From an uncultured Erysipelotrichaceae bacterium (GTDB lineage: Bacteria > Bacillota_I > Bacilli_A > Erysipelotrichales > Erysipelotrichaceae), in contig CACZNO010000164.1 of assembly GCA_902782505.1 (NCBI GenBank), forward strand, positions 1 to 19,222: a stretch of 19,222 bases of DNA, written 5' to 3'. The translations under genes were made by a program, and so were the position numbers. The notes under the pieces are model-generated. The model was given only the letters and a program-made list of their open reading frames with translations. It was not told the DNA's origin and searched no databases. Below, piece after piece: positions 3,877 to 18,384 of this stretch (position 1 is its first letter; each line of letters opens with the position of its first letter).

Positions 3877-3965
3877 TGGCGGAGAGGGTGGGATTCGAAC
3901 CCACGTGACGTTGCCGTCAAACTGATTTCGAGTCAGCCCCGTTATGACCTCTTCGATACCTCTCC
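3877..3965 (-). tRNA. tRNA-Ser (CGA)
   Basis: A class II tRNA of 89 bases including an encoded CCA. The acceptor stem GGAGAGG pairs with CCTCTCC. The anticodon loop CTCGAAA gives anticodon CGA (3928-3930), reading UCG codons. The long variable arm (TGACG-GCAA-CGTCA) is diagnostic of serine tRNA, and the T arm is GTGGG-TTCGAAT-CCCAC. It has its own promoter and terminator. Confidence 0.96.
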
Positions 3966-4079: not shown

Positions 4080-5834
4080 ATGAAACAGATCCTGTGTGTT
4101 TTCCTGACCGGAATACTTCTTCTGGCAGGATGCGCGAATAAAAAGACGCCGGATAACGCGTACGGCGGATTCTACAAAGAAGCGCCGGATAATTTGGACT
4201 ATACTGCGTCAGGCGAAGCCGGGAATCTTTTCCTGACCGCCAACTTTACGGAAGGTCTCATGGAATACGATGAAGAAGGAAAACTGGTCGGTGCGATTGC
4301 TTCATCGGCGGAATCCAATGAAGACAAAACCGTCTGGACGTTCCAGCTTCGCAAAGACATACAATGGGTGAATGCGGACGGCGAAGAATACGCGGAAGTG
4401 ACCGCGGAGGACTTCGTCACGGGGCTCCAGCACGCCTTGGACAAAAAATCCGAAGACGCGAAGATCCTGGCGAAACGGATCGTCGGCGCGGAATCCTATA
4501 TGAACGGAACCGGCAGTTTCGCCGCGGTCGGCATTGAAGCCGCGGATCCGTATACATTGATCTACCGGCTGACAGCCCCCTGCGATTTCCCTGCCCTTAC
4601 GGTGCACGGGGTCTTGTATCCGATCAACCGCAGTTTCTTTGAATCCAAATCCTGTTCGCTCGGAAACGGGGATTCTCCCGTCTGCCGGTTCGGCGAAACC
4701 GGAAAAGACAACATTCTCTATAACGGACCGTATCTTCTTTCTGAATACAGCGAGAAAGGCACGATCCGCTTAGTCAAAAATGAAAACTACCGGGACCGTA
4801 AGAAGGTGTATCCCAAGGAAGTCACCTTCTACTACGATGACGGCACGGACCCCCACTTCGCCATGAAGAAATTCGAAGACGGCGAGATCTCGTATGCCCC
4901 GATCGAGAGTTTCTGGTTCAAGGATGACTATGATTCCTACATGTCCAAATACGAGGGCTACGTCCGCACCGCAGCGCCGGATGATTCCCTGCGGTTTGTC
5001 CTGTACAATCCTGACCGTGTCTACGGAGAAGGTTCCGAACGCTCCGCAGAAGAAATCGAGAATACCCGCAAGGCTCTGGCAGACAAGAATTTCCGCCTGG
5101 CGATCCTCACCGCGTTTGACCGCAGTCTCTACCTGACGCCGGAATGCGCGGATAAAGCCCTCGGCAACATGAGCTTACGCAACACGATATCCGAAGGCGG
5201 CGCGGAGTACCGCACGGTTCTGGAAGCCAAGCTCAAAGGCTCTTTCCTAAGCGGAAAAGATCTCGCGGACGGAGCCGACGCGTTCTTTGATCCCGCCGCG
5301 TCCAAGTCCTTTTTAGCCCTTGCCGGCGAAAACGGGATCACCTTCCCGGTCATTCTGGAGCTGGGATTCCCCGCTGACGATCCGGGAATGATGCACCGGG
5401 CGTCGATATTCAAGAATTCCGTGGAAACATCCACCAACGGCCAGATCCTGATCCGTCTTTCGGAAGGTGCGGACAAGACCCAAAGCGACCTTACCCTGAC
5501 GGGTGTACTTACTCCTTTGACTCTGGATCCCGCGTCGTATCTTGAAGAACTGATGACGCATCTTGCCGGAGAAGAAAACGAATCGGTGCGGGTGTTTAAC
5601 GACTTCATGCGCGCGGCAGAAAGCACCAAGGATGCGGAAGCGAAAACCGAGAAATACGCCGAAGCGGAAGCCTGGGTCTTATCGGAAGGACTCATCATTC
5701 CGATCGGTGCGTCAAGCGCTGTACGGACCGCGACGAGAGTCAAAAACGCGGAAACACCGCGGACTTCCCGCGGCATGTGCGCTTACCGGCTCAAGTATCT
5801 CTACGTATCCGACACCTTGGTTAAATCCGAATAA
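4080..5834 (+). CDS. Oligopeptide ABC transporter substrate-binding lipoprotein (family 5, OppA-like)
   Basis: A 584-residue extracytoplasmic solute-binding protein. The N-terminus is a lipoprotein signal: basic start, hydrophobic core, and lipobox LLAGC with C18 as the acylated cysteine. The mature part follows the family 5 (OppA/DppA) pattern. An early TEGLMEYDEEGKLVGAIA segment is followed by a WTFQLRKDIQW block and AEDFVTGLQHALD. The Ala/Glu-rich stretch near residue 520 and a late LIIPIGA segment end the fold. The length is typical of oligopeptide binders. It should capture peptides outside the membrane for import. Unusually, no permease or ATPase genes are beside it. It has its own promoter and terminator, so it either shares a remote transporter or acts as a sensor or accessory binder. 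Ligand is unknown. Confidence 0.88.
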   Translation: MKQILCVFLTGILLLAGCANKKTPDNAYGGFYKEAPDNLDYTASGEAGNLFLTANFTEGLMEYDEEGKLVGAIASSAESNEDKTVWTFQLRKDIQWVNADGEEYAEVTAEDFVTGLQHALDKKSEDAKILAKRIVGAESYMNGTGSFAAVGIEAADPYTLIYRLTAPCDFPALTVHGVLYPINRSFFESKSCSLGNGDSPVCRFGETGKDNILYNGPYLLSEYSEKGTIRLVKNENYRDRKKVYPKEVTFYYDDGTDPHFAMKKFEDGEISYAPIESFWFKDDYDSYMSKYEGYVRTAAPDDSLRFVLYNPDRVYGEGSERSAEEIENTRKALADKNFRLAILTAFDRSLYLTPECADKALGNMSLRNTISEGGAEYRTVLEAKLKGSFLSGKDLADGADAFFDPAASKSFLALAGENGITFPVILELGFPADDPGMMHRASIFKNSVETSTNGQILIRLSEGADKTQSDLTLTGVLTPLTLDPASYLEELMTHLAGEENESVRVFNDFMRAAESTKDAEAKTEKYAEAEAWVLSEGLIIPIGASSAVRTATRVKNAETPRTSRGMCAYRLKYLYVSDTLVKSE

Positions 5835-5862
5835 AAACAGGACCTGCGGGTCCTATTTTTCG
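5833..5862. terminator. Shared bidirectional terminator
   Basis: AGGACC-TGCG-GGTCCT (5839-5854) is flanked by AAAAA on the left and TTTTT on the right. It ends both the binding-protein gene and the convergent six-gene operon. The stop codon of the GH13 gene lies in its right arm. Confidence 0.8.
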
Positions 5863-7505
5863 TATTCGTATACCCGGCACTCATACGGGCGGGTTTGAAT
5901 CACCGGCGTGGATGGGTTGTCGGCATAATTCGCAAAGATAAGTTTCGCTTTCCTAAAATCAAAGTTTTTCGGGAAGGAATACTTCGCGGGTTTTTCGCTG
6001 AACGAACAGAGCACCAGCAGTTTTCTTCCTTCGTATTCACGTTCATAAATGTACAGTTTCGAATTCAGCGGTTCAAATTCCTTATAGGTACCGTACCGGA
6101 CGATCTCGCTTTGGGTGCGGTAATGAATCAGATCCCGGTAGAAATGCAGCAGCGAATCCGGATCTTTTTCCTCCGTTTCAACGTTGACTTCCGGATAATT
6201 CGGATTGACCGCAAACCAGGGCGCCGCCGTACTGAATCCGGCGTTGGGTTCATCGGACCACTGCATCACCGTGCGGGCATTGTCCCTCGTCGCTTTTTGG
6301 ATCTTCGGCAGCACTTTCTCCTTGGGTTTATGACGGATGCCTGCCTCGTAGTGCTTTAAAGCCATACAGTCCTTATAATCGGAAATATCCGGGAGTTTGA
6401 TGTTTGTCATGCCGATTTCCTGTCCCTGGTACACAAACGGCGTGCCTTTCTGGAACATGTACGATACCGCCAGGGACTTGCCGCTTTCGGTGCGGTATTT
6501 TTCACTGCCGTAGCGTGAAATCACGCGCGGATGATCGTGGTTTTCCAAGTACAGGGTATTCCAGGCTTTCCCTTCCAGCGCGTTCTGCCAGTGCGAAAAC
6601 GCGTGTTTCAGTTTCACTAAGGAAAACGGATGCGGAACGTAATCGGTAAAGAAACAATCTCCTTCCATGTGCTGGAAATGGAACATCAGATCCAGATCCG
6701 GATGATCGCCCGAAAGATACGGAAGAGCTTTCCGCACGCTCATCATCGGGCCTTCCCCGACGACAAAACAGTCATAATGATCCAGCACGTCGCGGCGGAA
6801 TTCCTGTAAATATTCATGGATGTGCGGTCCCGAATCAAACAGCTCAATCCCGCGCTGGGCAACCGAGATACTGTCCGGCAATCCTTCCGGCTTGGAGATA
6901 AACGTGATGACATCCTCGCGGAACCCGTCCACCCCCATGTCCAGCCAAAAGCGCATGATATCCTTGACCTCTTCGCGCACCTTGGGGTTATCCATATTCA
7001 GATCGACCTGTTTCTCATGGAACAGATGGAGATAATACGCATCGGTTTTGGGGTCATAGCTCCAGGCGTCTTTGGCGAAGAAACTGTCCCAGTTGTTCGG
7101 GGGACCGTTTTTCTTTCCCTTGCGCCAGAAGTAATAATCGCGGTAGGGACTGGCTTCATCGCGGCTTTTCACGAACCATTCGTGTTCATCCGAGGTATGG
7201 TTTACCACCAGATCCATGATGACCTTGATATCCAGTTCATGCGCCTTATCCAGCACTTTCCGGAAAATCTCCAGATCCCCGTAATCCGGGTGGATGTTTT
7301 TGTAGTCGGAGATATCGTACCCGTAGTCGGCGTTGGGCGACGGATATAACGGTGAAAACCAGATTCCGCCGATGCCTAAGGATTTCAGATAATCCAGACT
7401 TTCGTACACACCGTAAAGATCCCCGATTCCGTCGTTGTTGCCGTCGCGGAAACTGCGGGGCCAGATCTGATAAAAGACCCGGTCTTTGTACCATTCGTTG
7501 TTCAT
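5853..7505 (-). CDS. GH13 alpha-glucosidase, oligo-1,6-glucosidase type
   Basis: A 550-residue cytosolic glycoside hydrolase of family 13. It starts MNNEWYKDRVFYQIWPRSF. All GH13 motifs are present: DLVVNH (98-103), GFREDVI with nucleophile D198, VVGEGP with acid/base E251, and ENHDHPR with D324. A DGNNDGIGD calcium-loop-like segment lies at 21-29. Valine directly after the nucleophile is the feature linked to alpha-1,6 (isomaltase-like) preference, though trehalose-6-phosphate hydrolase remains possible. The open frame continues 120 codons upstream, but that part is an out-of-frame read of the metallopeptidase gene. The chosen ATG has GGAGG 7 bases upstream and overlaps the preceding stop as ATGA. 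It is the last gene of the rex operon. No sugar transporter or regulator is adjacent. Confidence 0.9.
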   Translation of the reverse strand: MNNEWYKDRVFYQIWPRSFRDGNNDGIGDLYGVYESLDYLKSLGIGGIWFSPLYPSPNADYGYDISDYKNIHPDYGDLEIFRKVLDKAHELDIKVIMDLVVNHTSDEHEWFVKSRDEASPYRDYYFWRKGKKNGPPNNWDSFFAKDAWSYDPKTDAYYLHLFHEKQVDLNMDNPKVREEVKDIMRFWLDMGVDGFREDVITFISKPEGLPDSISVAQRGIELFDSGPHIHEYLQEFRRDVLDHYDCFVVGEGPMMSVRKALPYLSGDHPDLDLMFHFQHMEGDCFFTDYVPHPFSLVKLKHAFSHWQNALEGKAWNTLYLENHDHPRVISRYGSEKYRTESGKSLAVSYMFQKGTPFVYQGQEIGMTNIKLPDISDYKDCMALKHYEAGIRHKPKEKVLPKIQKATRDNARTVMQWSDEPNAGFSTAAPWFAVNPNYPEVNVETEEKDPDSLLHFYRDLIHYRTQSEIVRYGTYKEFEPLNSKLYIYEREYEGRKLLVLCSFSEKPAKYSFPKNFDFRKAKLIFANYADNPSTPVIQTRPYECRVYEYEK

Positions 7506-8212
7506 GTTTCTGCCTCCGTGGAAAGATTTGTTCTGACGCATGTGCGCGGGTTGACAAACGCTGTCTGCCGCATTTTCGCGTGATTCTTCCGGTACGCGGG
7601 ATCGTACCCCTCCAGCACCTTGTAAAACCGCGCGGAATGATTGAGCACCCGGAAATGCGCGTATTCGTGATAAACGATCGAATCGATGATTTCCGGCGCG
7701 TAACAGGCCAGCTGCGTATTCAGATGGATCCGGTTTTTCTTGGGTGAACAGGACCCGTAGCGCGTGTGCATGATCCGGTATTGATATTCCGTTCCGGTAT
7801 GCCCGGTAACCCTTTCGTATTCTTCCCGGTGATTTTCCGTATACTCTTCCAGCACCGTTTTCCAAAGATGTTTCACTAAGGCTTCCAGCACATCCTCATC
7901 TTCCGGATCTTTCATCGTAAAAAGAACGGAATCTTTCCGGATCGTAAACGAGTTTTTCGTTCCTTTTAGGATCATGGTGCGGTAAGGCTGTCCCAGAAGG
8001 AAAAATCCCTGTACGGTCCGGTTCATGTGCCCGAGGATCCATCCTTCGTTTTGGGCCAGAAAATCCCGGATTTTCCATTCGGGGATGAAGCGTCCGGCAT
8101 GCACGATCAAAGGCGGATCGTTTTCCGCACGGTACAAAAGACGGATCCCGCGCGTTTTCGTCCGTTTCAGTTCGTAGGCGATTTCCTTATCCGCGATCTT
8201 AACCGTTCGCAA
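7502..8212 (-). CDS. YgjP-type M48-like metallopeptidase (DUF45)
   Basis: A 236-residue protein of the YgjP/SprT-like zinc-peptidase group. The zinc motif HEYAH is at 182-186. It is followed by the NHSARFY segment (191-197), where the family usually has a further conserved His. The upstream RYGSCSPKKNRIHLN block (151-165) is a family hallmark. Substrate is not known. The start is a TTG codon at 8212 (no ATG is suitably placed), supported by GGAGG 6 bases upstream. It overlaps the end of the ABC-F gene by 14 bases, and its own stop overlaps the GH13 start as ATGA, so translation is probably coupled on both sides. Confidence 0.82.
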   Translation of the reverse strand: MRTVKIADKEIAYELKRTKTRGIRLLYRAENDPPLIVHAGRFIPEWKIRDFLAQNEGWILGHMNRTVQGFFLLGQPYRTMILKGTKNSFTIRKDSVLFTMKDPEDEDVLEALVKHLWKTVLEEYTENHREEYERVTGHTGTEYQYRIMHTRYGSCSPKKNRIHLNTQLACYAPEIIDSIVYHEYAHFRVLNHSARFYKVLEGYDPAYRKNHAKMRQTAFVNPRTCVRTNLSTEAET

Positions 8213-10061
8213 GGTTTTCCTCCGCTTCTTCCCATTCCTTCATATACGCCGCGAGCACATTGTGCTGCGTTGAGATCTGATCTTCGAGTTCTTCCATCTT
8301 CCGGTAATCGTGATAGTATTCCGGTTCAAAACGCAAGGCGCGCAAACGTTCCAGTTCTTCTTCCGCCTCGCCGATTTTTTCTTCCAGGCGTTTGACTTCA
8401 TTTTTCCAGTTCTTTTTCCGCACCGGACGGGAAGCTTCCTTCTTCTTTTCTTCCGCGGCTTTTTCCTCGGCTTGTTTCGTCAAAACGCCTTCCATGTATT
8501 CCGCATAGGAATACGGGTAATACACCGCGTTTCCGTCCTTGAAAATCAAAAGACTGGTTGCGATTTTATTGATGAACCAGCGGTCATGCGATACCACCAG
8601 CAGCGTTCCTTCGTAATCTTTCAGCGCATCTTCCAGCGCTTCTTTTCCGGGAATGTCGAGATGGTTGGTCGGTTCGTCGAGCACCAGGAAATTCGCCTGT
8701 TTCAGCATCAGTTTCGCTAACGAAAGACGCACCTTTTCTCCGCCGGAGAGAACTCCGACTTCCTTGAATACCTCATCCGCCGTAAATAAGAAATTCCCTA
8801 AGACCGTCCTTACTTCCGTACGGGTCAGTTCCGGGTACTCGTCCCATAATTCATCGAGAACCGTATGATCGCCGCGGAACTGGGCGAGTTCCTGATCGAA
8901 ATACCCGATTTCGATCTGGTGTCCCAGTAAAAACTCTCCGCCTAACGGAGGAATCGCGGAAACGATCGTCTTCACAAACGTACTTTTTCCTTCCCCGTTG
9001 GGACCGATCACGGCGATGCGCTGTCCGCGCAGGATCTCCAGGTTGACCGTCGCCAAAGGCCGGTCATACCCGACGACAAGATCCTTGGTTTCCAGGACCT
9101 GTTTTCCGCCTTTGATCGCCGCGGTAAAGCGCGGGGAAAAGTTCTTCTTCGCCGCGGAAGGGCTCTCGATTCTCTCCATGCGTTCCAGATACTTGATTTT
9201 GGATTGCGCAAAGGCGGCCTTGTTTTTCTTGTAGCGGAACTTTTCAATCAGGGCTTCCAGACGCGCGATGTCTTTCTGCTGGCGGTTATACGCCGACTGC
9301 CGGCGCAGATAATCGGCTTCCTTGGCCTCCATGTAATCGCTGTAGTTTACGTGCCAAAGCACCAGTTCCTCGTCGTCCAGTTCGTAGATTTTCGAAACGG
9401 TACGATCCAGGAAATACCGGTCATGGGACGCGATCACCACAGCTTTGGGATACTTGCGGATATACCCTTCCAGCCATTCGATGGTCTCCAGATCCAGATG
9501 GTTGGTCGGTTCATCCAGCAGTAAAATATCCGGCTTTTCCAGAAGAAGGCACGCGAAAGAGATCCGGGTCCTTTCGCCGCCGGAGAACGAACGCACCGAC
9601 CGGTCCAGATCCTCTTCCGTAAATCCGAAACGGGAGAACACGGTCTTCTGTTCGTTTTGGTAGGTGTATCCTCCCATGGCTTCAAATTCTTCCTGTAAAC
9701 GCGCGTATTTCGTTAAAACAGCTTCCCCCGTGTCAAGGTTCATCCGTTCCTCTACTGCGCGTATTTCGGCTTCCAGCGCGTGAATCGGACGGTAAATACG
9801 CTCCATCTGTTCGCGCACGGTCAAAGACTCATCATCAAAAGCGTGCTGACGCAGATAGCCCACGGTCACCTTTCCGGACTTGGAGATTTCCCCTTCATCC
9901 AGAAACTCCTCTCCCGCCATAATGCGTAAAAGAGTGGTCTTTCCGGTTCCGTTGCGCCCGATCAGCGCGATTTTTTCATTTTCCCGGATCAGGAAATGAA
10001 TGTCTTTGAAAAGGGTCTTGGTCCCGAAGGACTTTGACCCTGAATGAATCTCATAAATCAT
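8199..10061 (-). CDS. ABC-F family ATPase (ribosome-associated)
   Basis: A 620-residue soluble protein with two ABC ATPase domains and no membrane segments. Domain 1 has Walker A GRNGTGKTT (35-43), signature SGGER (160-164) and Walker B ILLLDEPTNHLD (179-190). Domain 2 has GPNGEGKST (353-361), SGGEK (439-443) and LVLDEPTNHLD (459-469). Between them is the basic interdomain linker (about 240-310; KKNKAAFAQSKIKYLERM) that reaches into the ribosomal E site in ABC-F proteins. A charged C-terminal coiled coil (about 525-618) recalls Uup/YdiF-type members. The likely role is translation factor or ribosome protection; resistance cannot be concluded. The ribosome site TAGGAG includes the stop codon of the upstream gene, so the two are tightly coupled. 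Confidence 0.9.
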   Translation of the reverse strand: MIYEIHSGSKSFGTKTLFKDIHFLIRENEKIALIGRNGTGKTTLLRIMAGEEFLDEGEISKSGKVTVGYLRQHAFDDESLTVREQMERIYRPIHALEAEIRAVEERMNLDTGEAVLTKYARLQEEFEAMGGYTYQNEQKTVFSRFGFTEEDLDRSVRSFSGGERTRISFACLLLEKPDILLLDEPTNHLDLETIEWLEGYIRKYPKAVVIASHDRYFLDRTVSKIYELDDEELVLWHVNYSDYMEAKEADYLRRQSAYNRQQKDIARLEALIEKFRYKKNKAAFAQSKIKYLERMERIESPSAAKKNFSPRFTAAIKGGKQVLETKDLVVGYDRPLATVNLEILRGQRIAVIGPNGEGKSTFVKTIVSAIPPLGGEFLLGHQIEIGYFDQELAQFRGDHTVLDELWDEYPELTRTEVRTVLGNFLFTADEVFKEVGVLSGGEKVRLSLAKLMLKQANFLVLDEPTNHLDIPGKEALEDALKDYEGTLLVVSHDRWFINKIATSLLIFKDGNAVYYPYSYAEYMEGVLTKQAEEKAAEEKKKEASRPVRKKNWKNEVKRLEEKIGEAEEELERLRALRFEPEYYHDYRKMEELEDQISTQHNVLAAYMKEWEEAEENLANG

Positions 10062-10069
10062 ACAAACTC

Positions 10070-11350
10070 CTAAGGTTTGACAGCATTCAGATACGTTTCG
10101 ATTCCTTTCGCCATGGCTTGGGCGTATTGATCAAAATGATCGGTCCACGCTTTGGCGTCTTCCGCTAAAGCGATATTGCACAGACTGAAGTAGAGGGACT
10201 GCAATCCGTTCGCGTCAACCGCAAAGGTGTCCATCTCGCTGTTGGCGTCTGCCTTTCCGGCGCCCAGCGCCTTCCCGCCGGTTTCACGGATATCGTAGTC
10301 TCCGTCATAGCCGCCGTCGATGCGGTCACTCGAGGATACCGAGTATTCCCCGTTCTTTAACGCCATGCCGCCTTCCGTTACCAGCGTATCGAAAATCGTC
10401 TTCGCCAGCGTATCGGAAATGTAGCTGGAGTATGTTACGCCGACGCCGGTCTGCGGAGTTCCGTCATACATATCAAAGGAGAAGAAGTATTTTCCTTTGG
10501 ACTTGTAGGCCGATTCCGCAACGCCTCCGACGCCGTACATGCCGGCCCAGTCAAACTGATCGCGGGTCAGGAAGACCTTATAACCGTCCGCTTCCAGTTT
10601 TTTCTTGACTTCGCTTGCGAACCGGAACATTTCCTCGGATTCCGTCAAACCGTTGCCCGTCAGATCATCACGGCTTTTTTCCGTGACCGGCCCCGGGTTC
10701 AGCACGATGTCATAGACGTCTTCCGGCAGGTTTTTCACCTTACGCACGTCTAAGAAGACATAGTTTTTATCCAGCACATTCTCGGTCGATTTTTCCGAAT
10801 TCATCAGCTTCGCATCCGCGTACAGCGTGACTTCGTAACGGGTTTTGTCACGCGGGACCGTAATGATGGACGCCGCTTCGATCGGATTGGCCATATATAA
10901 GCGTTTTTCCAGCAGGTTTTCGATCAGATAGACTTCGTAGAATCCTTCCGGGATCCCCCGCAGATCCATCTGTCCGTCCAGCATGGTCGTGGTCTTGTCG
11001 ATGGTGATTTCCTTGCCGTTGCAAACGTTGCGGAGCACCAGCGTTCTTCCGGTCAGATTGGACGAAGCGCCTTTCGAATATTCCGAGGAATACAGATTCA
11101 GAAATTCCCCGTAGAACACATAGTCATTGATTTCCGCGGTGGAATCGTATTCTTTTTCCGCGAACTGGGTGCGCAGTTTCTTGGCCGAAAGACTGCAGGC
11201 AGTAAACGCCCCTTCTTCCTTCGAGAACGCGCCGCGAATCAGACCGATCAGTAAAGAGAAGAGATAAATAACCAATGCCAGCGCAACAACCAGCAGCAGG
11301 ACATTCTTCCAGCGGATACGGTATTTCACTTTTTTCTTGGGCTGACTCAT
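10070..11350 (-). CDS. Membrane-anchored amidase_3-like protein lacking catalytic residues
   Basis: A 426-residue protein with a basic N-terminus and one membrane helix (about 15-37), so the bulk should lie outside the cell. Residues 214-425 follow the layout of N-acetylmuramoyl-L-alanine amidases (Amidase_3): a VLNPGP strand, GLTESEE helix start, LEADGYKVFLTRD, KYFFSFDMYD, GVGVTY and a final LQSLYFSLCNIALAEDA block. The zinc ligands are changed. The usual DPGHGG histidine is P221 and the usual SxH histidine is D293. The late catalytic Glu appears replaced near S389. A Glu around 237-239 remains. I infer a non-catalytic peptidoglycan-related protein. The middle region (45-210) is unrecognised. 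It has a strong AAGGAGGAAG ribosome site and sits 26 bases after asnS and 8 before the ABC-F gene. Confidence 0.6.
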   Translation of the reverse strand: MSQPKKKVKYRIRWKNVLLLVVALALVIYLFSLLIGLIRGAFSKEEGAFTACSLSAKKLRTQFAEKEYDSTAEINDYVFYGEFLNLYSSEYSKGASSNLTGRTLVLRNVCNGKEITIDKTTTMLDGQMDLRGIPEGFYEVYLIENLLEKRLYMANPIEAASIITVPRDKTRYEVTLYADAKLMNSEKSTENVLDKNYVFLDVRKVKNLPEDVYDIVLNPGPVTEKSRDDLTGNGLTESEEMFRFASEVKKKLEADGYKVFLTRDQFDWAGMYGVGGVAESAYKSKGKYFFSFDMYDGTPQTGVGVTYSSYISDTLAKTIFDTLVTEGGMALKNGEYSVSSSDRIDGGYDGDYDIRETGGKALGAGKADANSEMDTFAVDANGLQSLYFSLCNIALAEDAKAWTDHFDQYAQAMAKGIETYLNAVKP

Positions 11351-11376
11351 ATTCTTCCTCCTTTTCGTTGTCTTGT

Positions 11377-12768
11377 TTAATATTCCAGATGTCCCGGTGT
11401 GCGCGGGTACGTAAGAACGTCCCGGATATTCGCCATACCGGTGATGTACATCAGCATTCTTTCAAATCCCAGACCGAAACCGGCGTGCTTGCATCCGCCG
11501 TAGCGGCGTAAATTCACGTACCATTCCAGCGGTTTGGGATCCATCTTCAATTCCTTCATACGCGCGTCGAGAAGTTCGTAGCGTTCTTCTCTCTGGCTTC
11601 CGCCGACCAGTTCGCCGACTTCCGGCAATAACAGATCGCATGCCGCAACGGTCTTGCCGTCATCGTTCAGACGCATGTAGAACGCCTTGATATCCTTCGG
11701 CCAATCCGTAACGAACACCGGTCCGCCGACTACTTTTTCGGTCAGATACCGTTCGTGTTCGGTCTGTAAGTCCTTGCCCCAGGAAATCGGGAATTCGAAC
11801 TTCTGTTTGGCGTTGGTCAGAGCTTCGATGCACTCGGTGTAGGTCATGCGCGCGAAATTGCTGGAAACGACTTTGTCCAGTCTTTCGATCAGTCCCTTGT
11901 GAATCATCGAATCGAAGAACTTCATCTCTTCCGGGCAGTTTTCCCGGATGTACTTGATGCAGTATTTCACCATGTCTTCGATCAGATCCATGACGTCTTC
12001 CAGATCCGCAAACGCGATTTCCGGTTCAATCATCCAGAACTCGTTGGCGTGCGTCGTCGTGTTGGATTCTTCGGCACGGAACGTCGGACCGAAGGTATAC
12101 ACATCACGGAACGCCAGCGCGAACGCTTCCACGTGCAATTGTCCGGAAACCGTCAGACTCGCATGACGCTTGAAGAAGTCTTCGTCGTATTTGCCGTCGG
12201 TGCGGGTCGTAACGGTGAATACTTCCCCCGCGCCTTCCGCGTCGTTGGCGGTAATGATCGGCGTATGAACATAAACGAATCCCTGATTCTGGAAGAACTC
12301 GTGGATCGCCATGGACAACACCGAACGCACGCGGAACACCGCGCTGAACGTATTGGTGCGCGGACGCAGGTATGCCTGGGTGCGCAGATATTCAAAGGAA
12401 TGACGCTTTTTCTGTAACGGATAATCCTCCGCACACGTTCCTTCGACCTTGACGGACGTCGCATGCAGCTCAAAAGGCTGTTTGAGTTCCGGCGTGAGAA
12501 GGAATTTTCCTTCCACTGTCACCGCGGAACCGGTCAGAAGCTTCGCGATTTCCTCCGCGTTTTCCAGCGAATGATCGTAAACGATCTGGCAGTTGCGGAA
12601 ATACGTGCCGTCATTCAGTTCGATAAATCCGATCTTCCCGTTATCGCGGTTGGTGCGGATCCATCCCTGCAATACGACGTATTCCACGCCGTCCAGTTCC
12701 ATCGGTTCATTGGAGAGAACCATTTCGTACAGTTCCCGTATCGTATAAAAATCAGCCATCTTTTTCAT
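11377..12768 (-). CDS. asnS: Asparagine--tRNA ligase
   Basis: A 463-residue class IIb aminoacyl-tRNA synthetase. The N-terminal OB-fold anticodon-binding domain spans about residues 30-110 ([24 protein letters not shown]). The catalytic core follows with motif 1 ([15 protein letters not shown], about 156-170), motif 2 ([15 protein letters not shown], 230-244) and motif 3 ([13 protein letters not shown], 432-444). The [12 protein letters not shown] sequence is characteristic of AsnRS rather than AspRS. It attaches asparagine to tRNA-Asn. It begins 7 bases after rex. GAGGGG lies only about 3 bases before the first ATG (12768) and about 10-12 before a second in-frame ATG (12759), so the start may be three codons later. 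I saw no T-box leader; expression appears to depend on the rex promoter. Confidence 0.96.
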
Positions 12769-12775
12769 TCCCCTC

Positions 12776-13405
12776 TTAAATGTTCATTTCATTGGTCTCG
12801 AAGACCAGTTCCTGGATCGCGCTGACGACGTCGACCTGTTTGATCTTGACGCCTTCAGGCACCCGAATATGTTCGTGTGTAAAGTCCACGATCCCGACAA
12901 TACCGCACTTGGCCAGACGGTCCACCGTCGCCTGTACGTCGCTGGACGCTGTCAGAATGGCGATGCGGCAGCCTTTCGGAATGCGTTCTTCCAGTTCGCT
13001 CATCGGATAGACCGGCACATCATAGCGCGCCACCAGTTTTTCCGGATCCACGTCAAACGCGCACGCAATTTCTCCGACGACATACTGCCAGCGGTTATAA
13101 TGCATCAGCGCGCTTCCGAGATTACCGGCACCGATCAGAATAATCTTCTCATCGAATTCCGTTCCCAGTTTTTCGTTAAATACATCGATCAGTTTTTCGA
13201 TCGAATAGCCGTACCCTTGTTTGCCTAACGTTCCCAAGAAAGAGAGATCTCGGCGAATCGTAGTCGATTTGATCTGAACATGTTTGCTGAGTTCATCCGA
13301 CAGGATCCTTTCCAATCCCTGTTTCTTTAACTGACGCAACGCTTTCAGATACACCGGGTACCGCTGTAAAGTAGCTTTTGGTACATTTCTAGAATTATTA
13401 CTCAT
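12776..13405 (-). CDS. rex: Redox-sensing transcriptional repressor Rex
   Basis: A 209-residue Rex protein, a dimeric repressor that senses the NADH/NAD+ ratio and controls fermentation and respiration genes. An N-terminal winged helix (about 8-65) has the family blocks [16 protein letters not shown] and IRRDLSFLG...GYGY. A Rossmann domain follows with the nucleotide loop GAGNLG (92-97) and the DVDPEK turn. Both domains and the length fit the family. There is no ribosome site before the ATG at 13405. Instead a promoter places the likely first transcribed base at the A of the ATG, so the mRNA is probably leaderless. Two Rex-like boxes overlap this promoter, implying autoregulation. It heads a six-gene operon with asnS. 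Confidence 0.95.
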
Positions 13406-13420
13406 GTTAATATTTTAACA
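13405..13420. promoter_or_regulatory. Rex operator 1 (rex autoregulation)
   Basis: On the minus strand TGTTAAAATATTAACA: TGTTAA and TTAACA arms around 4 bases, matching the Firmicutes Rex box core TGTTAAnnnnTTAACA. It covers the -10 and ends on the first base of the rex start codon. Confidence 0.75.
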
Positions 13421-13439
13421 TATATTGTGAATTATTCAA
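13412..13439 (-). promoter_or_regulatory. rex operon promoter
   Basis: On the minus strand TTGAAT (13439-13434) and TAAAAT (13417-13412) are separated by 16 bases, with an extended TG (TGTTAAAAT). Six bases then separate the -10 from the ATG, so initiation is predicted at the start codon itself. Confidence 0.7.
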
Positions 13440-13441
13440 CA
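13426..13441. promoter_or_regulatory. Candidate Rex operator 2
   Basis: On the minus strand TGTTGAATAATTCACA has the same 6-4-6 geometry as operator 1, with one mismatch in each arm. Its centre is 21 bp from that of operator 1, about two helical turns, and it covers the -35. Confidence 0.45.
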
Positions 13442-13525: not shown

Positions 13526-13693
13526 ATGTATATTGTAATCGCATTCAACCGACAGTTGAAATTGCAACATAAAGGCATCATGCCTCACAGACATGTGTAT
13601 TTGGATCACGGGAGAAGCACACCGGGTATTCCGCCTTTTCCAAGTGAGATTGAACTGATTGAAAAAATAAAAAAGGAGTTTCACCTCAAATGA
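13526..13693 (+). CDS. Small ORF, possibly the surviving tail of a toxin gene
   Basis: A 55-codon frame, MYIVIAFNRQLKLQHK onward, ending IEKIKKEFHLK. Its stop overlaps the start of the next gene as ATGA. It contains a His-rich patch (MPHRHVYLDHG) followed by GIPPFPSEIELIE. I do not recognise a named family. A compact His-bearing C-terminal end coupled to a small acidic gene is the pattern of polymorphic toxin/immunity pairs. There is no ribosome site before its ATG. Immediately upstream (13449-13525) another frame encodes DPQFAKPENFWDSSLARALK, and a single-base change in the AAAAA run near 13520 would join the two. I therefore suspect a truncated and frameshifted remnant. The region is A+T-rich relative to its neighbours. 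Confidence 0.4.
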   Translation: MYIVIAFNRQLKLQHKGIMPHRHVYLDHGRSTPGIPPFPSEIELIEKIKKEFHLK

Positions 13694-14043
13694 GAACTAA
13701 CGAATTCAATAGTCTTGAAGACTTCACAGCACAGTATACCGGAGAGTGGGCTCCGTCAGAAGGGCATTGGTTGGGACTGGATTTTTCATTCCGTAACATT
13801 GAATACCGTCTTCAGACAGGTTCAATGTTCGAGTCAAATACAGATGATCTTTCAGCGCCTTTGTTCTTTTTGTATCGCAAGTTTAAATCCAAAGGACATT
13901 CATCCGCCGATGTAATACATGATTACCAATTGATTGGGAGTTATTTCGACATGGAAGAATTACTGAACTGTACTGACATTCAGGATATTCCTTTTAAAGA
14001 AATCATCATGGATGATTCAACCGAATTACTTGGACAGGATTAA
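13690..14043 (+). CDS. Small acidic hypothetical protein, immunity-protein-like
   Basis: A 117-residue acidic soluble protein with no signal peptide or membrane helix. It has an aromatic-rich front (QYTGEWAPSEGHWLGLDFSFR, then EYRLQTGSMF) and an acidic C-terminus. I do not recognise a defined family. Size, acidity and ATGA coupling to a preceding short ORF fit the immunity partner of a polymorphic toxin, but this is inference. The ribosome site AAAAAGGAG lies 11 bases upstream, inside the preceding ORF. Codon use is A+T-rich compared with rex and the ATP-grasp gene, suggesting transfer. A strong terminator follows. Confidence 0.65.
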   Translation: MRTNEFNSLEDFTAQYTGEWAPSEGHWLGLDFSFRNIEYRLQTGSMFESNTDDLSAPLFFLYRKFKSKGHSSADVIHDYQLIGSYFDMEELLNCTDIQDIPFKEIIMDDSTELLGQD

Positions 14044-17688: not shown

Positions 17689-18384
17689 ATGACAAAGAAA
17701 AGACACTATGAAGCACTTTTTTTCGATTTGGACGATACTCTCCTGAGTTTTTCCAAGGCCTCCAAAGCCGCGTTCCGCGCGGTATTTGAGGAACAGGGTC
17801 TGCCCTATTCCCGGCGCCTTTTCGCGCGCTACGAAGTCATTAACCTGGCTTATTGGAAGAATCTCGAGAAAGGTCTTGTGACGATGGAAGTATTAAGCTA
17901 CCGACGGTTCGAGGACCTCTTCCGCGAGTTTTCGATCGACGCCGATCCGCATCTGATCGGTGAACGGTATTTTTACCATCTGCAGTTCCAGCACCAGAAA
18001 ATGCCCTATATGGCTTCCGTATTACGGGAATTACGGAAACGCGGTTACCTTCTCTACGTCATCACCAACGGGGAAGCGCGCACCCAGAAACGCCGGTATC
18101 ACGATTCCGGATTGGATAGGCTGACCGAAAGACAGTTTATCTCCGGTGAAATGGGCTGTAAGAAACCCGACGTGCGTTATTTCGAGATCATCGAGGAAAC
18201 CGTCCGGATTCCCCGGGAGAATATCCTGCTGATCGGAGACTCGCTCTCCTCGGATATTTCCGGAGGAAAAAACTACGGCATCGATACCTGTTGGATGACC
18301 CCGGAAAACACACCGGAGGATCCCGCCGTATTGCCGGATTACCGGATCTCGGATTTGCGTCAGTTACTGGACATTCTTCCTTAG
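17689..18384 (+). CDS. HAD-superfamily hydrolase (YjjG/YfnB-like)
   Basis: A 231-residue haloacid-dehalogenase-type phosphatase. Motif I is DLDDT with nucleophile D13 and acid D15. Motif II is ITNG (T126), motif III the lysine in CKKPD (K158/K159), and motif IV GDSLSSD (D184, D189). An alpha-helical C1 cap (about 20-95) fits the YjjG-like nucleotidase or phosphoglycolate-phosphatase-like groups. The natural substrate cannot be read from sequence. The ATG has no ribosome site and lies 6 bases after a good extended -10, so a leaderless mRNA is predicted. The gene converges on another HAD gene and overlaps its stop by 4 bases, and its last codons form one arm of the terminator. Confidence 0.9.
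   Translation: MTKKRHYEALFFDLDDTLLSFSKASKAAFRAVFEEQGLPYSRRLFARYEVINLAYWKNLEKGLVTMEVLSYRRFEDLFREFSIDADPHLIGERYFYHLQFQHQKMPYMASVLRELRKRGYLLYVITNGEARTQKRRYHDSGLDRLTERQFISGEMGCKKPDVRYFEIIEETVRIPRENILLIGDSLSSDISGGKNYGIDTCWMTPENTPEDPAVLPDYRISDLRQLLDILP

Follow-up and report, generated by a model that had tools for sequence, protein, structure and literature searches.

Rex repressors recognize operators with the consensus TTGTGAA-N4-TTCACAA or with TTGTTAA half-sites (PMC6391272, PMC6154617; the text available was partial, as for all papers cited here). In Streptococcus suis, rex is autoregulated, and a Rex site, TGTTGATTTTTTCACAA, lies over the -35 and is bound in vitro (PMC6154617); in Caldicellulosiruptor bescii, rex belongs to its own regulon (PMC6391272). 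In restriction-modification systems, C-protein genes are commonly leaderless, autoregulated and equipped with two operators (PMC4824078). Leaderless mRNAs amount to 8.6% of the mRNAs of S. pyogenes (PMC6431027) and to under 1% in two enterococci (PMC7724050), 212 leaderless transcripts are given for Clostridium acetobutylicum (PMC4533764), and a computational survey places the leaderless genes of Bacillota mainly in Lactobacillales and Mycoplasma (PMC3160421). What these accounts of Bacillota share with the present case, as predicted below, is leaderless mRNA; in their available parts, Erysipelotrichaceae are not named and membership of rex is not stated.

The locus described here lies in a window of 19,222 nucleotides (the whole stretch of DNA that was analysed), which is contig C164 of the draft genome G000 of an uncultured Erysipelotrichaceae bacterium (1.46 Mb, 270 contigs, 88% complete). 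It resembles S. suis in having a Rex site at the rex promoter, one of its two boxes being nearly the same word as TGTTGATTTTTTCACAA, and it differs in that the available S. suis text describes one site, whereas at the present locus the -10, the predicted start and the ATG's first base all lie under a second, perfect box, and there is no Shine-Dalgarno sequence (SD). With the C-protein genes, as far as the partial source describes them, it would have in common a DNA-binding protein that controls its own gene and is made from a leaderless mRNA, and two operators at that gene's promoter; the C-proteins are of another family and activate before they repress, whereas Rex is a redox-sensing repressor. 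In a literature search of partial coverage, neither a leaderless rex nor any leaderless gene of Erysipelotrichaceae was found to be reported, and the leaderless, self-controlled rex proposed here would be a new combination of known parts, a compact form of the ordinary self-repressing switch.

The rex promoter and its two boxes

The rex gene (12776-13405, minus strand) encodes a redox-sensing repressor of 209 aa, matched by PF06971 (N-terminal winged helix, 64.2 bits), PF02629 (Rossmann NAD-binding, 57.6 bits) and the equivalog NF003989 (210 bits against a cut-off of 177), and its GAGNLG motif aligns to GVGNLG of PDB 2vt2. A sequence-only reading of this DNA had proposed a TTGAAT-16-TAAAAT promoter with an extended TG and with the A of the rex start codon as the first transcribed base, and all of these elements were recovered at their places on the minus strand. 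By pattern match, the -35 hexamer TTGAAT occupies 13439-13434 and the -10 hexamer TAAAAT 13417-13412, with a 16-nt spacer and a TG at 13420-13419; the -10 begins 12 nt 5' of the start codon. When the seventh base past the -10 hexamer is taken as +1, transcription is predicted to begin at 13405 (minus strand), the A of the ATG itself, with a C at -1.

No ribosome site was found either, in agreement with the same reading: an SD is absent from the 20 nt 5' of the ATG, where the anti-SD duplex reaches +1.0 kcal/mol. The start codon is firm because an in-frame TAA, read from the sequence, lies 12 nt upstream and because the ATG is the sole in-frame ATG, GTG or TTG ahead of the conserved N-terminus. 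For the predicted mRNA, the folding energy of the first 40 nt is -0.5 kcal/mol. The lack of an SD, the ATG start and the position of the -10 are all features of leaderless genes, and the placement of the -10 makes leaderless initiation at rex a strong prediction. Another promoter-like match (TTCACA-16-TAACAT, 13431-13404, minus strand) was rejected, as its +1 would fall within rex, with no in-frame start remaining before the conserved N-terminus.

Both promoter hexamers are overlapped by Rex-like boxes, the arrangement in which a regulator's operator overlaps the promoter of the regulator's own gene. Box 1, TGTTAAAATATTAACA (13420-13405, minus strand), is a perfect 6-4-6 sequence match that provides the extended -10, and its final A doubles as the first base of the start codon. 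Box 2, TGTTGAATAATTCACA (13441-13426, minus strand), lies over the -35, with an imperfect left half and a perfect right half. Their centres (13412.5 and 13433.5) are 21 bp apart, and the perfect box touching the start codon and the imperfect box 21 bp from it, as first described, were thereby confirmed. Dinucleotide shuffling of the 80-bp rex region, repeated 20,000 times, gave a perfect TGTKAAN4TTMACA box once, and a perfect box together with a second, non-overlapping box (at most one mismatch) never. The exact TGTTAAN4TTAACA occurs at two places in the 1.46-Mb host genome, rex and adhE. Relaxed patterns were not enriched there (17 places against 47 in the reversed control for TGTTAAN4TTAACA with two mismatches; 10 against 10 for TGTKAAN4TTMACA with one mismatch), and the relaxed search was dropped as a regulon finder in this genome, its counts not exceeding the control; in the sister genome G001, the latter pattern gave 20 against 9.

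The gene named adhE from its sequence carries three Rex-like boxes in both members of the genus (G000 C35:9909-9988; G001 C37:2828-2908), spaced by 42 and 22 bp in the former and 41 and 24 bp in the latter. As at rex, and in the same register, its middle box yields an extended -10 (TGT-TAAATT), and its third box ends beside an SD; unlike rex, adhE retains a leader with an SD. In S. suis, adhE is raised when rex is mutated, and Rex binds it in vitro (PMC6154617), and the boxes at adhE, a Rex target elsewhere, support the rex boxes as operators of this same Rex.

The reading that we favour, with a probability of roughly 0.75, is that rex has its own promoter and a leaderless mRNA, and that Rex acts at both boxes in a negative feedback that includes the genes reached by read-through. 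Its steps (start site, Rex binding, repression, 5'-AUG translation and co-transcription) are those that we infer here. A sigma-70-type promoter would drive rex, taking its extended -10 from the left part of a Rex box that serves as operator; RNA polymerase would start on the A of the ATG, and the resulting mRNA without a leader would be read by the ribosome from its 5' AUG, independently of an SD. At low NADH/NAD+, Rex dimers would block the polymerase by occupying box 2, over the -35, and box 1, which spans the -10 and the start site and takes in the first base of the start codon; a rise in NADH would free the promoter. Autorepression is thus the likely role predicted for the boxes, and by read-through the feedback would extend to asnS and later genes.

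Comparison with the sister genome and other Erysipelotrichaceae

The comparison within the genus is one of two incomplete drafts (about 88%), the sister G001 (isolate RUG11872) contributing locus L002. Of the 37 bases 5' of the rex ATG, 35 are identical in the sister, both changes falling in the 5-bp linker. The upstream alignment that had been proposed as a check finds both boxes kept, with 32 of 32 box bases identical (16/16 in each), although operator and promoter overlap and the conservation of one is not fully separable from that of the other. In the rex coding sequence, identity between the two genomes is 39 of 81 at four-fold sites, 127 of 209 at third positions and 521 of 630 over all bases. 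Directly 5' of the conserved 37 bases, 18 of 83 agree by position, and the best gapped match further 5' of rex in the sister is the ATP-grasp gene.

These figures bear on the possibility that the promoter lies further upstream and that rex has an AU-rich leader lacking an SD, bound by the ribosome through another route, with the boxes as operators only. There is room for such a promoter, about 640 nt of divergent open reading frames (ORFs) and non-coding DNA separating a terminator-like site from rex, and a gene of the sister that we take to be trmB shows an SD-poor start with a leader. Yet the sole other minus-strand match nearby is the one that would start within rex, and conservation that holds for 37 bp and then falls to 18 of 83 positions makes a shared promoter just upstream unlikely; we give this arrangement a small share of the probability. 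The region in question contains, at 13526-14043 on the plus strand, two small ORFs of 55 and 117 aa that overlap each other and run divergently from rex; the sister has neither room nor a match for them at that place, neither has a Pfam match above cut-off or an NCBIfam match, and the 117-aa ORF has no relative among viral contigs.

The leaderless, Rex-controlled promoter that we prefer can also be set against a wider group, the set of relatives comprising 39 loci, namely that of the sister and 38 others (L003-L040), which share with it the orthologous gene and its neighbours. All 38 relatives outside the genus have an SD word 5' of rex and neither genus member has an SD; pairing at or below -5.5 kcal/mol was obtained in 37 of the 38, with L032 as the exception. 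The relatives' starts were picked by best SD pairing, which biases toward an SD, but a control 40 nt further up gave the SD word in 0/38 and such pairing in 1/38, and these near-zero values indicate that the SDs of L003-L040 are real. Starts were set by hand for the sister (where the script took a GTG at codon 8, -3.0 kcal/mol), for L035 (where it found none) and for L032, where a TTG (-12.7) was changed to a GTG (-3.0), making it the sole relative above -5.5. Most relatives combine an SD, often GGTGAT, with a predicted leader of about 10-15 nt and with promoter and operator farther from the ATG.

A best Rex-like box with at most two mismatches over the 14 specified positions is present in 19 of the 38 relatives (0.3 expected from shuffles), two boxes with at most three mismatches are present in five (0.01 expected), and in 27 a spacing of 16-18 nt separates the Rex half-site TTCACA, in the -35 position, from an extended -10 (TGn-10); no Rex box was found in the near-identical loci L033, L035 and L036. 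Together with the exact box at adhE and the bases unchanged in the sister, these family-wide boxes support the predicted identity of the rex boxes as Rex operators, as originally claimed; the sites at rex and adhE, kept in the sister, are of the operator type with TTGTGAA or TTGTTAA half-sites at target promoters. The sequence-only reading had also predicted cooperative autorepression from the helical phasing of the pair. Cooperative tandem operators would keep such a spacing across species and targets, and as a general rule the phasing did not hold. The spacing is 21 bp in both genus members, and the 22 bp of L018, L024 and L025, where the second box is weaker (four mismatches), fit phasing, but the spacings at adhE shift and those of the five two-box relatives are 28 or 34 bp.

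Box 2 is similar to the -35 region of the family (AATAATTCACAA, L003 and L005), with the -35 role now on its left half. This match, and the overlap in sequence between a -10 and a half-site, would suit a rex that is leaderless and not usefully autoregulated, in which box 2 would be left over from the half-site at the family's -35, and box 1 would be an extended -10 that happens to resemble a Rex half-site. Such an outcome seems improbable to us, as box 1 is a full palindrome kept at 16 of 16 bases, including the half past the -10 that no promoter element needs. Weakest is the proposal that the boxes are a chance AT-rich palindrome or the operator of another regulator over a normal promoter, to which the unenriched relaxed patterns and the affinity of AT-rich promoters for such words lend something, but which is made very improbable by an exact box confined to rex and adhE in the host genome, by the shuffles and by the excess of Rex-like boxes at the relatives' rex genes.

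A match to rex was found in 185 of 195 genomes of the family, and 65 of these starts, from 51 other genera and with species partly shared with the earlier set, were examined as a wider sample. For 49 of the 51 genera, an SD word was present in every sampled genome, starts again being picked by best SD pairing. The exceptions are genus g17, with weak pairing (-4.5), and genus g47 (L238), in which a TATAAT ends 7 nt before the ATG, with neither SD word nor Rex box, and which provides a second leaderless-like rex; an automatic flag for leaderless-like genes was disregarded, having fired on many SD-led ones. In a Rex protein tree (27 of 40 rows, midpoint root, 13 of 24 inner branches open), the two leaderless rows group (100/99) beside the SD-led L003 and L004 (80/64). 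The half-site serving as a -35 in 27 of 38 relatives suggests that self-control is old and that the loss of leader and SD is derived; the simplest reading is that an SD-led, Rex-controlled promoter is probably ancestral, and that leader and SD were lost in this genus. If so, leader and ribosome site can disappear from a repressor gene while operator control is kept or gained. The SD-bearing near relatives provide a built-in comparison, and box 1 a clean test case for an operator that shares a base with a start codon.

Gene neighbourhood and downstream genes

On the minus strand, rex is followed after 7 nt by asnS, for asparagine-tRNA ligase (11377-12768), and then by genes for an N-acetylmuramoyl-L-alanine amidase (Amidase_3) protein (10070-11350), an ABC-F ATPase (8199-10061), a YgjP-like metallopeptidase (7502-8212) and an alpha-amylase-family glucosidase (5853-7505, its start at the methionine of MNNEWYK, as read from the ORF). 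The genes after asnS are close together or overlapping. The sequence-only reading had listed asnS, ABC-F and the glucosidase as downstream genes; all three are present, and its list omitted the amidase and the metallopeptidase. No minus-strand promoter-like match was found in 5400-13400, and the gene order makes co-transcription of rex, asnS and the later genes likely. The same interval has 19 terminator-like matches against 9.1 expected, seven of them on the minus strand, of which one (5761-5747) lies past the glucosidase and six are intragenic, and given these six, internal termination may occur within the run. The predicted redox control of the downstream genes derives solely from gene order, namely the 7-nt gap between rex and asnS and the lack of a promoter-like match in 5400-13400.

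Upstream, a terminator-like hairpin, known by pattern match only, lies between the tsaD and ATP-grasp genes and rex (14076-14049, minus strand); both members of the genus have the ATP-grasp gene in the interval from tsaD to rex. Across the 39 rex loci, which are short stretches giving lower bounds, tsaD lies upstream of rex in at least 33 and asnS downstream in at least 38, with the amidase in at least 21 and ABC-F in at least 16. Elsewhere in the window, there is a tRNA gene at 3880-3965 on the minus strand (Rfam RF00005, 52.9 bits).

Zero-leader starts and other candidate elements

The case of rex points to leaderless genes in Erysipelotrichaceae, and -10 hexamers with at least five of six matches were counted at the zero-leader position and at ten neighbouring positions in G000 (385 kb, 312 ORFs) and G001 (193 kb, 164 ORFs). 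Seven candidate ATGs were found at zero leader in G000 against a mean of 1.3 (Poisson, 4e-4) and six in G001 against 1.5 (4e-3). With rex removed, these become 6 against 1.3 (P 0.002) and 5 against 1.5 (P 0.019), and with rex and two late starts removed, G000 retains 4 against 1.3 (P 0.043); in G000, a leader length of 7 also reaches 8. Internal in-frame ATGs, taken as a control, gave 4 at zero (mean 2.3) in G000 and 3 (mean 2.9) in G001. The relatives' loci lend no support, with 5 at zero leader against a mean of 2.8 (P 0.15); these loci are homologous copies, and in them the internal-ATG control itself peaks at zero (20 against a mean of 4.3).

Among the candidates, a gene adjoining adhE that we take to be mug-like shows a -10 at zero leader in both species, the hexamer in G001 matching at 4/6. 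The gene's SD score of -9.1 in G000 stems from a GTGAT overlapping the -10. The presumed trmB has the zero-leader placement in G000 only, the leader in the sister being longer as well as SD-poor. By extrapolation, the leaderless class would be about 2% of ORFs in these bacteria. We tentatively entertain, with more doubt than confidence, a wider reading in which leaderless genes are a standing class of that size and rex entered it at least twice, in this genus and, with no Rex box, in g47. Here one genus, in losing the whole leader and the SD, would have brought together operator, extended -10, transcription start and the first base of the start codon in a single 16-bp element, and the mRNA of an NADH sensor would need a 5'-terminal AUG, which would tie redox feedback to conditions favouring leaderless translation.

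Further placements of this kind were seen as separate observations. In the window, a HAD-like hydrolase ORF (17689-18384, plus strand), which the sister matches at just 23-25% identity, has a TG and TAATAT (4/6) at zero leader and a weak SD, and in other genera a zero-leader -10 with no SD precedes ORFs of 295 and 271 aa (L003 and L005) and amidase-like ORFs of 439 aa (L027 and L028).

The box-ATG pattern was found at 41 places in 315 genomes against 28 in the reversed control; among the 32 matches listed (30 loci), four head an ORF of at least 100 aa, and the matches are mostly chance. One of the places, in a third genus (L247, G011 C5, ATG at 1033), has TTGAAC-16-TGTTAAAATATTAACATG with a single box and no SD before a gene that we presume to be glycerate kinase-like, and it shares the 18-bp box-ATG element and its spacing with rex. 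In the host genome, a relaxed Rex-like box lies near a gene on C74, presumably for a 2-hydroxyacid dehydrogenase-like protein. Two others may be possible further Rex targets: a single Rex-like box 19 nt before an ORF that we take to encode a CooC-like ATPase (L128, C261:3702), and a single Rex-like box over the start of a presumably reductase-like ORF (L064, C56:8081), the same word recurring in the sister at C203:4983.
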